From the IMG/VR virus record IMGVR_UViG_3300046655_000536, positions 1 through 28,218 of that record: 28,218 nucleotides of DNA. One strand, 5' to 3'. This document shows, one piece after another, positions 18,207 to 22,664 of the stretch (its first letter is position 1; the number at the start of each line of letters is the position of its first letter). This DNA is from a virus. Position numbers and translations under genes: made by a program. The notes under the pieces are model-generated. The model was not told the origin of the DNA and ran no database searches. It saw only the letters and a list, made by a program, of their open reading frames with translations.

Positions 18207-19397
18207 TTAAACTATTGATATATCTAAAGCTTTTTTCTTCATTTTACTCATTACAGCATACCTTCCCGCATCTATAAGGTGATTGTATGAGTCGATAGGT
18301 TTATTTATAGGAAGCCCTGACCTATCTTTTGCCCACGTATAGCTTGAAAATTCCTCAATTAAATCTTTGCTTTGAGCGTGAAGCTTTATTGGATAATCTT
18401 GAAGCATTTGTATTCCAAACATAACCGAGTCCCTTCCTTTGCTTGCAGGTGTAACCCAAGCTCCACTATTCCGAAGCTCGGCTATACTTTTTGGCTCGGC
18501 ACTATCAGCTACTATGTTATCCGTAATACCTAAATCTTTTATTATTTTGCCAATACTTTGGTTGGTAAGTTGCTTTTGATACAGATGTTGCTTCCAATAT
18601 AATGCGCCACCGTGATAGCGAATCTCAACTAATGCTGTTGGGTCGTTTGTATATCCCCAGTCAAGTCCATAGACTCTCCACTTATATTCCTCAGGCCACT
18701 TGTTTGTAACTTCAAAGTCAGGGAAAACCAATCCCTCAAGCCTTCCTACCTCTCCAAGGCCATAGACCTGCCATCTGTATTGGTTAGCTGTACCTCGCTT
18801 TATATTCTCAGGTGTTGGCTCGTACAGCAGAATTTTCTCCCTGATAGATGGCTGTATAAAAGCGTTATCCCTAAATGTTGAAACAAACCAATCTACATCA
18901 TCTCTACCGTACAGCTTTTCGTGTGCCCAAAAACTCGCCGAGGGATTAAAGTCAATGATTGACTGATGGCTTGTTCTCATACTGATTTGCTCAAAAATAC
19001 CATATTCAATTCCGTTTGCTTCATTAAAAAAACAATGTGTTCTTTTACCTGACCGAGCATCTATTTCATCATTGTATGATTTGAACTCAATGTTTGAGCC
19101 TTTCTTGAAGGTAAAAAGCCTATCTGATTTATTGTGATTGACAAGTTGTTGCTGACAATAAGGGTCGCTGAATATTATATTCTGTGCATCTCGATATGCT
19201 CCAACTCTTAAGTTTGGTATATCCTGCCCAACAACAGTAATAATCAAGTCCTCTTCTTTTGTTGCTAGCGATATAAGATACTGAAGGATAGCGTAGGTTT
19301 TACCCGAGGATGTTCCTCCCTGATGAACTACGTATGGCTTTTTAGATTCTAGTGTCCAAAAGAAAAGGTCATTTACTTGTATCTTGTGGCCTGACAT
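18207..19397 (-). CDS. terL: Terminase large subunit
   Basis: A 396-residue packaging motor and nuclease (PBSX/SPP1-like). The ATPase has Walker A GGTSSGKT at residues 27-34 and a Walker B-like strand THCFFNEANG at about 120-129, then SMRTSHQSIIDFNPSASFW (coupling region). The RNase H-fold nuclease shows acids in GLDWGYTNDPT (Asp246), IVADSAEPKSI (Asp298) and SYNHLIDAGRYA (Asp376). The start ATG 19397 (MSGHKIQVNDLFFW) overlaps the small subunit by 29 bases; a TTG six bases earlier is less likely. It lies directly downstream of the oxygenase/small terminase genes, so packaging and DNA modification share one operon. Confidence 0.95.
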   Translation of the reverse strand: MSGHKIQVNDLFFWTLESKKPYVVHQGGTSSGKTYAILQYLISLATKEEDLIITVVGQDIPNLRVGAYRDAQNIIFSDPYCQQQLVNHNKSDRLFTFKKGSNIEFKSYNDEIDARSGKRTHCFFNEANGIEYGIFEQISMRTSHQSIIDFNPSASFWAHEKLYGRDDVDWFVSTFRDNAFIQPSIREKILLYEPTPENIKRGTANQYRWQVYGLGEVGRLEGLVFPDFEVTNKWPEEYKWRVYGLDWGYTNDPTALVEIRYHGGALYWKQHLYQKQLTNQSIGKIIKDLGITDNIVADSAEPKSIAELRNSGAWVTPASKGRDSVMFGIQMLQDYPIKLHAQSKDLIEEFSSYTWAKDRSGLPINKPIDSYNHLIDAGRYAVMSKMKKKALDISIV

Positions 19398-19746
19398 ATT
19401 CAAAGGTTACCTTGTTAATTTTTTCACCATCTGTTGTATGGTCATTGTACTGCATCGACAAGGCTTTTCTTTCTTCATCTGTGCATATTAACTTATAAAG
19501 AGCAAGCAGTCCAGTTGGTGAGGTGCTTTTGTGTAGCTTTGAACGTATGCTTACTTTTATTTTTGCTTTGTTTTTTTCAATCGCATCTTTTATAGTGTCC
19601 ATTTCGTCAGAATCCAATGGGAAGTGTTTGTAGAATGTTTCTCTTGATATTCCTAAATATGATGACACATCAGATATAAAAAATAGGTTGTGACTATCAA
19701 TTAGTTCTAATGATTTTCTATATAGTTCTTCTTTTTTGTAAGCCAT
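19369..19746 (-). CDS. terS: Terminase small subunit-like HTH protein
   Basis: A 125-residue protein with an N-terminal helix-turn-helix, FISDVSSYLGISRETFYKHF (about residues 23-42), a charged oligomerisation helix (IKDAIEKNKAKIKVSIRSKL), LLALYKLICTDEERKALS and a C-terminal beta piece INKVTFEYV. This is the normal layout of small terminases that recognise phage DNA. Overlap with the large subunit supports it. Its ATG touches the stop of the oxygenase gene. Confidence 0.88.
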   Translation of the reverse strand: MAYKKEELYRKSLELIDSHNLFFISDVSSYLGISRETFYKHFPLDSDEMDTIKDAIEKNKAKIKVSIRSKLHKSTSPTGLLALYKLICTDEERKALSMQYNDHTTDGEKINKVTFEYVRPQDTSK

Positions 19747-20636
19747 TAATTTGCCTTTTTGTTTGCAATTAACTCTTTTTCGCTTCCCTCTTCAAGCTCT
19801 CTTTTTCTTTTTCTTAATGTATCAAGATGCTCAGGATTAAGCCTATTCTTTTCACGAGCTGTTTTGACTTTTCTTATCCTTGCTATTTCATCGTCAAGTG
19901 GCTCGCACTTCCACATCTGTTCTAAAGAGTAATATACTATTGAATATCTGTAAGCAAGTTCGTTTTTATATTCAATACTGCTCACACCGTGAAGTATATC
20001 TTGGCCATTGAATATTGTTAGAGTATTATCCTCAACCTCTAAAGCAATATCAAGCGCAGGTATTACTAAATATCCCCCATCGACATCTTTTTTGAACACA
20101 ACCATATTTGATAGAACACCTTTAAAGTTGCCACTATCAAAGTGATATTTTAGCGCATTGTTTTTGTTAACAATACCCGATGTGAATGGGCTTCCACCTA
20201 TTGTCCAGTCCTGCATCACCTTATCCTCAACAAGGTTGTTGTGATATTCAAACTGTTCAGGAAAGTATTTATTATACATACCAGTCAATTCTTTTGCAAA
20301 GCTTGTTATTACGTGGTGTTGTTTCTTTTCATTAATGGCCATTGCAGTTGTGGAGCAATAGTCTTGTCGCATAGCCAGCCTTGGTGAATATCCAAAGATA
20401 GAGCTTTGACTTACGAGGCCACGTGACCTTTTACCCTTGGTGTATTTTATATTCTTAACAGCCCACCTTAAGCCTGATGTATCTGTTTCTAGCTTTTTGT
20501 ATAGAACGGTTGGCTGATTGTTGCAATATATAATACAGTCCTCTTTAATAAGGCGAGATACATCTGAACGCTTGGCAGTTGTTTTCTTGTATCTATCTAA
20601 ATCAATCTCAATAGGTTCAATGTCAATTCTTTTCAT
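19746..20636 (-). CDS. TET/JBP-family 2OG-Fe(II) DNA base dioxygenase
   Basis: A 296-residue oxygenase predicted to oxidise the methyl group of thymine or 5-methylcytosine in DNA, using 2-oxoglutarate and iron. The core reads WTIGGSPFTSGIVNKNN, then ALKYHFDSGNFKGVLSNMVV with His165-x-Asp167 as iron ligands and Asn170 as the family-typical Asn, GGYLVIPALDIALEV (187-201), LTIFNGQDILHGV with the second iron His216, and AYRYSIVYYSL with Arg230 for 2OG. The N-terminal segment (YSPRLAMRQDYCSTTAMAIN) also fits JBP/TET proteins. The last ~50 residues are a highly charged helix (RKRKRELEEGSEKE) outside the core. It overlaps the glycosyltransferase gene by 14 bases. Substrate base is not decided by sequence; no C5-methyltransferase is visible, which favours thymine. 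Confidence 0.87.
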   Translation of the reverse strand: MKRIDIEPIEIDLDRYKKTTAKRSDVSRLIKEDCIIYCNNQPTVLYKKLETDTSGLRWAVKNIKYTKGKRSRGLVSQSSIFGYSPRLAMRQDYCSTTAMAINEKKQHHVITSFAKELTGMYNKYFPEQFEYHNNLVEDKVMQDWTIGGSPFTSGIVNKNNALKYHFDSGNFKGVLSNMVVFKKDVDGGYLVIPALDIALEVEDNTLTIFNGQDILHGVSSIEYKNELAYRYSIVYYSLEQMWKCEPLDDEIARIRKVKTAREKNRLNPEHLDTLRKRKRELEEGSEKELIANKKAN

Positions 20637-21528
20637 AGTGTTCTATAATTTGCTTCCAAGTATCGTTTGATTTTGTCATTATATTGGCCTTCAATGGCTC
20701 TTTGTTTACAGCCTCTAAAAGCTCTTTTGCATTTGAAACAACATAGCAGTTAACATTCTCCTTCCATATACTGTTCGGATTATCTGCCCACTTTTTGTGA
20801 ACTATTATTGTTTGATTCCAATAGTCAGCTTCAAGAAAAGTGTATTGAGTTCCTCCGCCATCATTCTTGATAACAGACAAGTCAACAAGCTTTTTATATC
20901 CTCCGTATATTTTCTTACTATCGTTGAATGTTTTGCCATATTCACCTAGGTAATATTTATCAAAACCTAGTGGCTTTAATTTATGAAAATAATAGAACGG
21001 ATTCTTACTTCCGTAAATATCAATATTTGCACCAAGATTATTAGCCTCAACGATTGTATGTGTTCCCTTGTCAAAATCAACACGACTCGGTGCAACAGCA
21101 TTGCCCTTTGAAAGAACGCTTCCTTTCTCATACTTGTAAAAGGGATGTTCTATAAAATCGTTATCTATTCCCATTCCAATCAACAAGTCAGCAACAGACT
21201 TTCTTATAGTTATAACTTTCTTTGAGGCCCTGAGAAAGGATATTACGTTTTCATCAAGCTCCGTAGGGTCGTGTATTACAACAATGCTATTCTTAAAATA
21301 TTTAAGGTGTTCTCTATGCTTTTTATCAATAGCTAGAAGGAACTTGTTTTCAAGAACACGAGCTTTCTCAAGTGCAATATTTTTATAATGAACACCATAT
21401 CCGTATCGTCCACTTCCACGACCTGAGCCTGATATTTTTAGTATTGACTTTTTTGTGAGCAAAGCTAAATGCGCACTAAAAGAAACCCATCCACCATATT
21501 TACTATTAGCTAAATAAAAGTATGTCAT
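20623..21528 (-). CDS. GT-B glycosyltransferase beside the oxygenase
   Basis: A 301-residue glycosyltransferase of GT-B (GT4-like) architecture. N-terminal half: KYGGWVSFSAHLALLTKKSI (Gly-rich first loop), then ISGSGRGSGRYGYGVHYKNI and SIVVIHDPTELDENVISFLR. C-terminal half: APSRVDFDKGTHTIVEANNL (146-165), the usual second-domain start, and DGGGTQYTFLEADYWNQTII (223-242) with Glu233 in the place of the EX7E/donor motif. It is translationally coupled to the TET/JBP gene, so it likely adds a sugar to the hydroxymethyl base that enzyme makes. The sugar and linkage are unknown. Alternative: surface-glycan transferase, less likely in this operon. Confidence 0.8.
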   Translation of the reverse strand: MTYFYLANSKYGGWVSFSAHLALLTKKSILKISGSGRGSGRYGYGVHYKNIALEKARVLENKFLLAIDKKHREHLKYFKNSIVVIHDPTELDENVISFLRASKKVITIRKSVADLLIGMGIDNDFIEHPFYKYEKGSVLSKGNAVAPSRVDFDKGTHTIVEANNLGANIDIYGSKNPFYYFHKLKPLGFDKYYLGEYGKTFNDSKKIYGGYKKLVDLSVIKNDGGGTQYTFLEADYWNQTIIVHKKWADNPNSIWKENVNCYVVSNAKELLEAVNKEPLKANIMTKSNDTWKQIIEHYEKN

Positions 21529-21529
21529 A

Positions 21530-22108
21530 TTATTTATATGTTTCTAACAGAAATAATACTACATCAGTATTGCTGTCAATATTTTCTGATTCTCCAACTT
21601 CTTCTAGTTTTTTTAGTGCATACTCGTATTGCTCGCTGTCAAAGTACAAAGTTATTTGCTTCACCTTGTTGTTTATATATGTATCGAGGTTCTTGTCAAG
21701 TTCATCTTTATCAAACTCAGGCTCGACAGCATCGTCAAAGTATGCTCCGGGAATATCAAGCCCCCACTCTGATAGGTCTTGAACCTCCCATTCGTTTGCT
21801 AGCACATCCCAATCCCATTCACCAAACGAAGCGTTATCCTTTATAATAAATTCTTTTTTCTGTTGTTCAGTAAAATTATTTATTTGAATTATTGAAACTT
21901 TCTTTAATCCTAGTTCAATGCAAGCTTGTAGTCGCATATTGCCACCAAGTACAGTATTGGTTTCATCTACAATTATAGGCCTCAGGTCCATCATTTGAGG
22001 AAATTCCTTTATAGATTTTTTAAGCTTTATAAACTTATCACCTTTTATCACCCTTGGATTGTCAGGGCTAACTTTAATTGTATTTATAGGTACTTTAATA
22101 GATTCCAT
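21530..22108 (-). CDS. ParB-like nuclease/N-terminal-domain protein
   Basis: A 192-residue protein from ATG 22108, one base after the upstream stop. It opens MESIKVPINTIKVSPDNPRV and has VLGGNMRLQACIELGLKKVS (53-72), the ParB box with Gly-Asn-Met-Arg, then EFIIKDNASFGEWDWDVLAN and DLSEWGLDIP. In many phages this same stretch is followed by a DNA methylase domain; here there is only an acidic tail (DAVEPEFDKDELDKNLDTYI) and no methylase. ParB-like proteins recur with phage base-modification genes, where they may act as nuclease, CTPase or regulator. A longer frame from TTG 22198 is rejected. Confidence 0.85.
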   Translation of the reverse strand: MESIKVPINTIKVSPDNPRVIKGDKFIKLKKSIKEFPQMMDLRPIIVDETNTVLGGNMRLQACIELGLKKVSIIQINNFTEQQKKEFIIKDNASFGEWDWDVLANEWEVQDLSEWGLDIPGAYFDDAVEPEFDKDELDKNLDTYINNKVKQITLYFDSEQYEYALKKLEEVGESENIDSNTDVVLFLLETYK

Positions 22109-22109
22109 G

Positions 22110-22664
22110 TTATGCTTTTTTTGTTTCATATCTTCTTTGAAATTCCTTTTGTATTCGATTAAAATAAGATTTAGCGTTTTTTGTTCCAAATAAGCCAAAA
22201 TCTGTTGAGTTGTTATTTATTTTGGTAATAATTTTATATTGCTCAATAATTGTTTTGTCAGGCCATGATTCTAAACTTGTTTGAGCTATCTCTTTTGTAG
22301 ATAGTTCTTTATGTTGCAGGAAAACGCCTGCATTTAGCTTGTACCAATCGTTAAAGCATTTAGCCAAGGCTGATATATTATTTCCATAACGCTTGGCCTC
22401 GTCGTAAATAACAGCCATCAGCCACTTAGGATATACTTCAATAAAAGGTATGTCATCTCCAAACAAAGGATTTTTTACCATCAATGTTTCATGTAGTCTT
22501 ACAAGATATTTTTTGAGGGCCTCCTTTTCTGTTGGTAGTTCTTTTGTTGCTCCAATATCAGTATGAAACTTATAAAGAGTATTTAATAAATCTTTATTGT
22601 ATTCAAATCTTGTACTTATTTCGTAATAATTATTTGCTTCTTTTTTTGTGTTTGCTATTCTCAA
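22110..22664 (-). CDS. Hypothetical protein between replication and ParB genes
   Basis: A 184-residue helical protein (YYEISTRFEYNKDLLNTLYK, FIEVYPKWLMAVIYDEAKRY, ALAKCFNDWYKLNAGVFLQH, then IIEQYKIITKINNN). Family not recognised. A 4-base overlap with the replication protein gene, and tight spacing to the ParB gene, suggest a replication-linked role, perhaps as a helicase-loader-like partner, but no Walker motif is present. Confidence 0.7.
   Translation of the reverse strand: MRIANTKKEANNYYEISTRFEYNKDLLNTLYKFHTDIGATKELPTEKEALKKYLVRLHETLMVKNPLFGDDIPFIEVYPKWLMAVIYDEAKRYGNNISALAKCFNDWYKLNAGVFLQHKELSTKEIAQTSLESWPDKTIIEQYKIITKINNNSTDFGLFGTKNAKSYFNRIQKEFQRRYETKKA

Follow-up and report, generated by a model that had tools for sequence, protein, structure and literature searches.

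Which base does a phage modify when it encodes a TET/JBP oxygenase next to a glycosyltransferase and no recognisable C5-methyltransferase? The question is raised by a linear virus record of IMG/VR (IMGVR_UViG_3300046655_000536; 28,218 bases, GC 36.7%), the whole length of which is called the window here. The minus strand encodes, in this order, a ParB-like protein, a transferase, a TET/JBP oxygenase, a probable small terminase subunit (TerS) and the large terminase subunit (TerL). The initial annotation read the first three genes as a DNA hypermodification cassette acting either on thymine, with a base-J-like product, or on 5-methylcytosine (5mC) of the host. Such a cassette is supported by the present analysis. 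The oxygenase requires a 5-methylpyrimidine; thymine is always present, while 5mC depends on a methyltransferase. Based on comparative evidence, thymine is most likely the substrate. The cassette probably generates glycosylated 5-hydroxymethyluracil (5hmU), a base-J-like product, in the phage DNA after replication, at about the time of packaging.

The oxygenase matches the Pfam profile Tet_JBP (PF12851) with E=3.2e-13 and 49.7 bits (cut-off 34.9). The catalytic residues proposed at the outset were placed correctly: H165, D167 and N170 (H165 x D167 xx N170), H216 and R230 are invariant in 27 aligned sequences, and H165, D167, H216 and R230 are aligned in 60. The structure comparison suggested by the initial annotation was carried out with an AlphaFold model (AF2, pLDDT 88). 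In Foldseek, the 26 top PDB matches were CcTET, CMD1, NgTET1 and TET2 (E 4e-12 to 6e-9), and FTO and ALKBH ranked behind the TET/CMD1 structures. The protein falls with TET-family structures and not with an unrelated 2-oxoglutarate oxygenase family, and the profile agrees. Judged by its sequence and modelled fold, it is a true TET/JBP protein. Only Tet_JBP exceeded the cut-off within its 296 amino acids. Neither the J-binding domain of JBP1 nor the SWI2/SNF2 domain of JBP2 was recognised, and the oxygenase is therefore not classed as a JBP.

Many RefSeq homologues and the matched PHROG family (phrog_6059) are labelled 'queuine tRNA-ribosyltransferase'. The label would suit a role of oxygenase and transferase outside DNA modification, i.e., in RNA modification or in the decoration of the capsid or host surface, with the genes lying near the terminase by accident. 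The Tet_JBP match and the fold contradict the label, which was rejected as a misannotation. Moreover, the consistent association with ParB, with terminase and with enzymes of DNA hypermodification in phages far removed from each other speaks against such a role, which is considered highly improbable. The labels 'SNF2 DNA repair protein' and 'DpdA-like', found with the former on many RefSeq actinophage gene 2 products that are TET/JBP oxygenases, also look like misannotations.

As for the substrate, the oxygenase could instead oxidise 5mC made by a methyltransferase of the host or of the phage beyond the contig, and the transferase would then glycosylate 5-hydroxymethylcytosine (5hmC). Characterised phage TET enzymes work in this way (PMC12730594). 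However, no C5-methyltransferase (PF00145) exceeded the cut-off in any of 42 contigs, comprising the window and 41 relatives (846 kb in total, ten contigs of at least 28 kb). The same search detected the family in 10 of 14 reference genomes used as positive controls. A fragment match of 15 bits in L034 was below threshold and was treated as noise. The thymidylate-synthase-family hydroxymethylase (PF00303), searched for with positive controls, was not found in the window or the 41 relatives either. The earlier statement that the window holds neither a C5-methyltransferase nor a hydroxymethylase is thus confirmed, and with both absent, the TET protein is the only evident source of the 5-hydroxymethyl group. 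The 5-hydroxymethyldeoxyuridine (5hmdU) DNA kinase HMUDK (PF18723) is absent from the window as well; P-loop kinase-like proteins and the amino acid:DNA transferase ADDT (PF18724) occur in relatives only.

The annotated TET phages point in the same direction. No C5-methyltransferase was found in 14 of the 15, and 5 of the 15 have ADDT; both observations favour thymine. The sole carrier, Melnitz-3, has an HhaI-type enzyme adjoining its TET, as the 5mC route would predict, but this TET sits on a remote branch of the tree. PF00145 also occurs in 3 of 78 contigs bearing the window's transferase family, a set which extends beyond the TET-seeded one and contains many near-duplicates.

Further evidence comes from the relatives, in which the enzyme of the second step varies. 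Scanning IMG/VR with the oxygenase gave 127 relatives, of which 80 were kept (58-78% identity). The order ParB, variable enzyme, TET, TerS and TerL was found again in most of these 80 contigs, which excludes chance. The slot between ParB and TET is filled by one of two TAGT clusters (PF20691) at 64 loci. The GT-B-like transferase occurs in eight contigs including the window, although three of these have it on the other side of TET. A ninth contig (L017) has a transferase fragment, and four (L058-L061) have no gene between ParB and TET. In L052-L054 (TET 64% identical), the slot holds ADDT, an FAD-dependent oxidoreductase and a P-loop protein. In the tree, their TETs group with that of the window in one clade (L052; support 99/98). 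Nine further contigs (L137-L145) were found with the ADDT of L053 as query, and all nine have TET beside ADDT. A sister locus in Siphonobacter (L087) has ParB, a P-loop protein only, TET and terminase. Within the TET subclade resembling that of cyanophage MED4-117, the window's transferase family (L092-L097) and ADDT with a P-loop protein (L137-L140) both occur. Since ParB, TET and terminase stay constant while the slot varies, these three form the conserved unit, and different enzymes can take over the second step.

The same arrangement is known from cultured phages. The actinophages Tonitrus, MakoManhole and Prince have the order ParB-TET-ADDT-kinase-terminase, and the TET of Mycobacterium phage Prince is annotated as 'thymidine hydroxylase'. 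The authors describing Rhodococcus phage Tonitrus interpret its ParB-TET cassette as thymidine hypermodification (PMC11955845). ADDT, the kinase and the FAD enzyme were assigned to 5hmU chemistry by Pfam naming and the published thymidine-hypermodification pathway. Their substitution in the slot across the window's clade, L087, the MED4-117-like subclade and the actinophages favours thymine as the substrate and argues against the host-5mC branch.

Other cassettes contain additional enzymes. In 14 relatives, a second sugar transferase (Gly_transf_sug, PF04488; cluster 23, e.g., L030 3988-4698) lies directly upstream of ParB and may build a chain on the first sugar. Arthrobacter phage Bolt007 (OP985600; L133 4306-6577) encodes ParB, TET, a TAGT-like transferase and a PIG-L type GlcNAc deacetylase (PF02585, 1.9e-12). 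This order suggests that the oxidised base first receives N-acetylglucosamine, which a deacetylation step then turns into an amino sugar. As Bolt007 is in culture, the chemistry of its cassette is testable. In cyanophage MED4-117 (L127 3222-4705) and pelagiphage HTVC112P (L125 4001-5597), the neighbour of TET is a methyltransferase of the FkbM type (PF05050), and ParB and terminase are encoded nearby; this methyltransferase perhaps O-methylates the hydroxymethyl group or a sugar. An unusually long cassette in L142 (969-5208) consists of ParB, TET and ADDT, followed by a PLP-enzyme-like protein and an apparent D12-type methyltransferase.

The transferase of the window belongs to an unnamed family, designated 'GT28' after its cluster number and distinct from CAZy family GT28. 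Several motifs are invariant in the 23-member alignment, i.e., GGW, VIHDPTE, RxDxDK and DGxGxQYxxLxA; for the window protein, they are listed as GGW, VIHDPTE, SRxDxDK and DGGGTQYTFLEA. The window protein matches no Pfam family at E<=1 and has no meaningful PHROG match. The family was not found in 50,697 phage records (tblastn with the window protein and with two distant members). A profile of the 23 sequences gave nothing useful against PDB sequences, and the T4 alpha- and beta-glucosyltransferases showed no sequence match with the window protein in the Pfam and PDB sequence searches. Nonetheless, one homologue exceeds the cut-off of PF13524 (Glyco_trans_1_2; 25.6 vs 25), and two weakly match PF00534 (Glycos_transf_1), both being GT-B nucleotide-sugar domains. 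The earlier GT-B label is plausible through these distant homologues but not from the window protein itself, whose structure model, built from 7 aligned sequences, had a poor pLDDT of 51 and was left unused.

The partners of this family are informative about its acceptor. At least 97 relatives of the transferase were found in IMG/VR. Among the 78 contigs mentioned above, the partner is Tet_JBP in 49 and a thymidylate-synthase-family protein in 25 (one partial, below cut-off). Four have neither; two of them (L099, L113) are cut at the gene, and two (L100, L171) lack both partners. TET and the thymidylate-synthase-family protein occur together in no transferase contig tested for both, and TET and transferase are adjacent at most loci inspected. 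The helical domain of the 5hmdU DNA kinase (HMUDK_hel) was present in 18 of 18 tested contigs of the thymidylate-synthase type, compared to 0 of 23 of the TET type. For the thymidylate-synthase-like protein of L118, the nearest PDB match is a CMP 5-hydroxymethylase, followed by thymidylate synthases. The transferase thus accompanies one or the other of two enzymes that supply hydroxymethyl groups, and one of the two belongs to a 5hmU pathway. The best explanation is that its acceptor is 5hmU or a closely related derivative. This pairing again favours thymine. With about equal chances of being right or wrong, the family can be regarded as a widespread, dedicated 5hmU-DNA glycosyltransferase, the 5hmU being supplied by TET/JBP or by a nucleotide-level route. 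Base-J-like glycosylated thymine would then extend beyond kinetoplastids and their relatives to many bacterial viruses.

The operons of L112 and L114-L119 combine HMUDK_hel, a nucleotidyltransferase/cupin-like or radical-SAM/SPASM protein, the GT-B-like transferase and the thymidylate-synthase-family protein. They possibly represent a further, uncharacterised thymidine hypermodification.

A mixed or partial route was also considered, in which thymine and 5mC are both oxidised, or in which 5hmU stays partly free and the sugar goes on a later thymine derivative or on something else. TET enzymes can be promiscuous. Moreover, the thymidylate-synthase-type phages have the transferase beside the 5hmdU kinase domain; the kinase would compete for the same hydroxyl, and the acceptor in those phages may therefore be a later intermediate. 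In the tested TET-type contigs, however, no such kinase domain accompanies the transferase, so that the obvious acceptor is the TET product. The mixed route is accordingly judged improbable.

Several points weigh against thymine as the substrate and 5hmU as the sugar acceptor. The window itself has no thymidine-specific enzyme, and its contig is probably an incomplete genome, so that a distant methyltransferase could be missing from it. TAGT, the commonest transferase in the slot, uses glucosylated hydroxymethylcytosine in T-even phages (PMC13216743); as it acts there on cytosine derivatives, its presence is no evidence for thymine and would fit the 5mC route. The near-identical L103 and L105, as well as L161, carry TET, the transferase family and a C5-methyltransferase, about 5 kb apart, and a 5mC route is possible in them. 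The thymidylate-synthase-linked transferases form one clade in the tree, which indicates a single evolutionary switch and counts as one event. The poor model of the window transferase gives no clear fold. Finally, the residue at HxD+3 (Asn or Asp), which splits phage TETs largely into two tree halves, was rejected as a substrate marker because Cr30, a phage with ADDT, has Asp, and Asn is also found in human TET2, which acts on 5mC. The Asn of the window oxygenase is thus not diagnostic of its substrate. Considering these points together with the missing PF00145 and the thymidine enzymes in the slot of relatives, the 5mC route seems rather unlikely for the window, though less so than the mixed one.

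Under the favoured reading, in which thymine is oxidised and glycosylated, the cassette would operate as follows. Late in infection, the ParB-like protein would bind the phage DNA, position TET and set its sites of action, possibly with CTP as in chromosomal ParB, given that GxxRxxA is retained. With iron and 2-oxoglutarate, TET/JBP would hydroxylate the 5-methyl group of selected thymines to 5hmU, and the GT-B-like transferase would cap the hydroxyl with a sugar from a host nucleotide-sugar. The terminase would then package the modified DNA. Given the translational coupling of these genes and their place immediately before the terminase genes, modified DNA would arise as packaging starts. The likely benefit would be resistance to host restriction or CRISPR nucleases.

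The coordinates of the five genes are collected in the table below. The earlier coordinates, including the 14-base overlap between transferase and TET, were correct on a check of the sequence. The ParB and transferase genes are separated by one spacer base, and the TET stop and TerS start overlap as TAATG. Together, these junctions are typical of an operon whose genes are translationally coupled. The placement of ParB just upstream and of both terminase genes just downstream was borne out as well, with TerS as a weak call.

Genes of the predicted hypermodification cassette and the adjoining terminase genes in the window
Gene product	Positions	Strand	Length (aa)	Basis and remarks
ParB-like N-terminal-domain protein	21530..22108	-	192	Cassette gene 1; PHROG, Pfam, locus counts, residue conservation
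GT-B-like glycosyltransferase, unnamed family ('GT28')	20623..21528	-	301	23-member alignment, Pfam matches of distant members
TET/JBP 2-oxoglutarate/Fe(II) oxygenase	19746..20636	-	296	Pfam, AF2 model and Foldseek, relatives, tree
Probable terminase small subunit (TerS)	19369..19746	-		phrog_309, position between TET and TerL, junction
Terminase large subunit (TerL)	18207..19403	-		Pfam; likely ATG start at 19397

The ParB-like protein matches PHROG families with a ParB domain (E to 4e-28 and 2e-26), and its match to Pfam ParB_N (1.8e-4) is under the cut-off. The GxxRxxA motif is retained (G56 N57 M58 R59.. A62), its conservation being read in 74 sequences. A mechanical open reading frame starting from TTG at 22198 was rejected as too long in favour of the ATG at 22108, since ParB relatives mostly have 191-205 amino acids. 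Homologues of ParB were found at 76 of 82 loci (the window, a copy of it and the 80 relatives), and TerL homologues likewise at 76. TerL matches Pfam Terminase_3C (8.8e-22) and Terminase_3 (3.8e-7). The match of TerS to phrog_309 (E=0.0019) is weak and is backed by its position between TET and TerL in relatives. The link between TET and terminase recurs in actinophages, MED4-117 and HTVC112P; co-expression with packaging thus seems to be selected, and the modification would be timed accordingly.

The window also codes for head, portal, tape-measure and connector genes, an Erf-like annealing protein, a NinG-like protein and a DnaD-like loader, which identifies it as a fragment of a long-tailed phage. 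Among bacterial genomes, close TETs were found in Bacteroidota (Siphonobacter) and Ignavibacteria contigs only, which hints at phage hosts of this kind. In the loci L087 (8895-12834, Siphonobacter sp. BAB-5405), L086 and L088, which lie within bacterial contigs, a window-like TET is accompanied by ParB, by either TAGT or a P-loop protein, and by TerL. They are likely prophages in Bacteroidota and Ignavibacteriota.

Thymine was reportedly predicted as a substrate of phage TET/JBP proteins by Iyer et al. in 2013. The initial claim that either branch would be new for this phage type was overstated, as annotations of cultured actinophages already include ParB-TET-terminase cassettes with thymidine-hypermodification enzymes (Tonitrus, PMC11955845; Prince). 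Cassettes pairing TET with glycosyltransferases or with thymidine enzymes are already known kinds. The transferase family, its pairing rule and the second-step exchange within one phage group appear new, no record of them being found in the sources searched. Likewise, no report of glycosylated 5hmU in any phage was found in the literature searched. Base J is known from kinetoplastids. If the proposed chemistry is correct, a post-replicative route from thymine to a sugar-bearing base exists in phages, as a prokaryotic parallel to, and possible source of, base J. It would also add a new family of enzymes with which thymine in DNA could be labelled, and one more way in which phages escape restriction. 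The swap of the second step behind one oxygenase suggests that the DNA coat can be changed by exchanging one gene, and it offers a genome rule separating thymine-TET from cytosine-TET systems.

Compared to known systems, the actinophage cassettes (Tonitrus, MakoManhole, Prince) resemble the window in ParB-TET adjacency, downstream terminase, lack of a C5-methyltransferase and TET tree half. Their second step is a kinase with an amino acid:DNA transferase, whereas that of the window is a glycosyltransferase. In phage TET and TAGT systems (Bolt007, Nonlabens phage P12024L, most window relatives), a glycosyltransferase gene also stands before or after TET, mostly with ParB. TAGT is another family, however, and the window transferase does not match PF20691, although the slot proteins of relatives do. 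The 5mC-TET cytosine hypermodification systems of phages, reportedly described by Burke et al. in 2021 and Pyle et al. in 2024, likewise use TET and glycosyltransferases on phage DNA but depend on a phage C5-methyltransferase, which was not found here. With the T4 alpha- and beta-glucosyltransferases, the window transferase would share the transfer of a sugar, in the manner of GT-B enzymes, to 5-hydroxymethylpyrimidines of DNA; the substrate of the T4 enzymes is 5hmC made at the nucleotide level. In the kinetoplastid base J pathway (thymine hydroxylases JBP1/JBP2 and the base-J glucosyltransferase), a TET/JBP oxygenase is likewise followed by a glycosyltransferase, and glycosylated 5hmU is also the product predicted here. 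In contrast to that pathway, the window belongs to a phage, and its oxygenase of 296 amino acids, without recognised J-binding or SNF2 domain, is encoded alongside a GT-B-like transferase of an unnamed family and a ParB-like partner in a terminase-linked operon.

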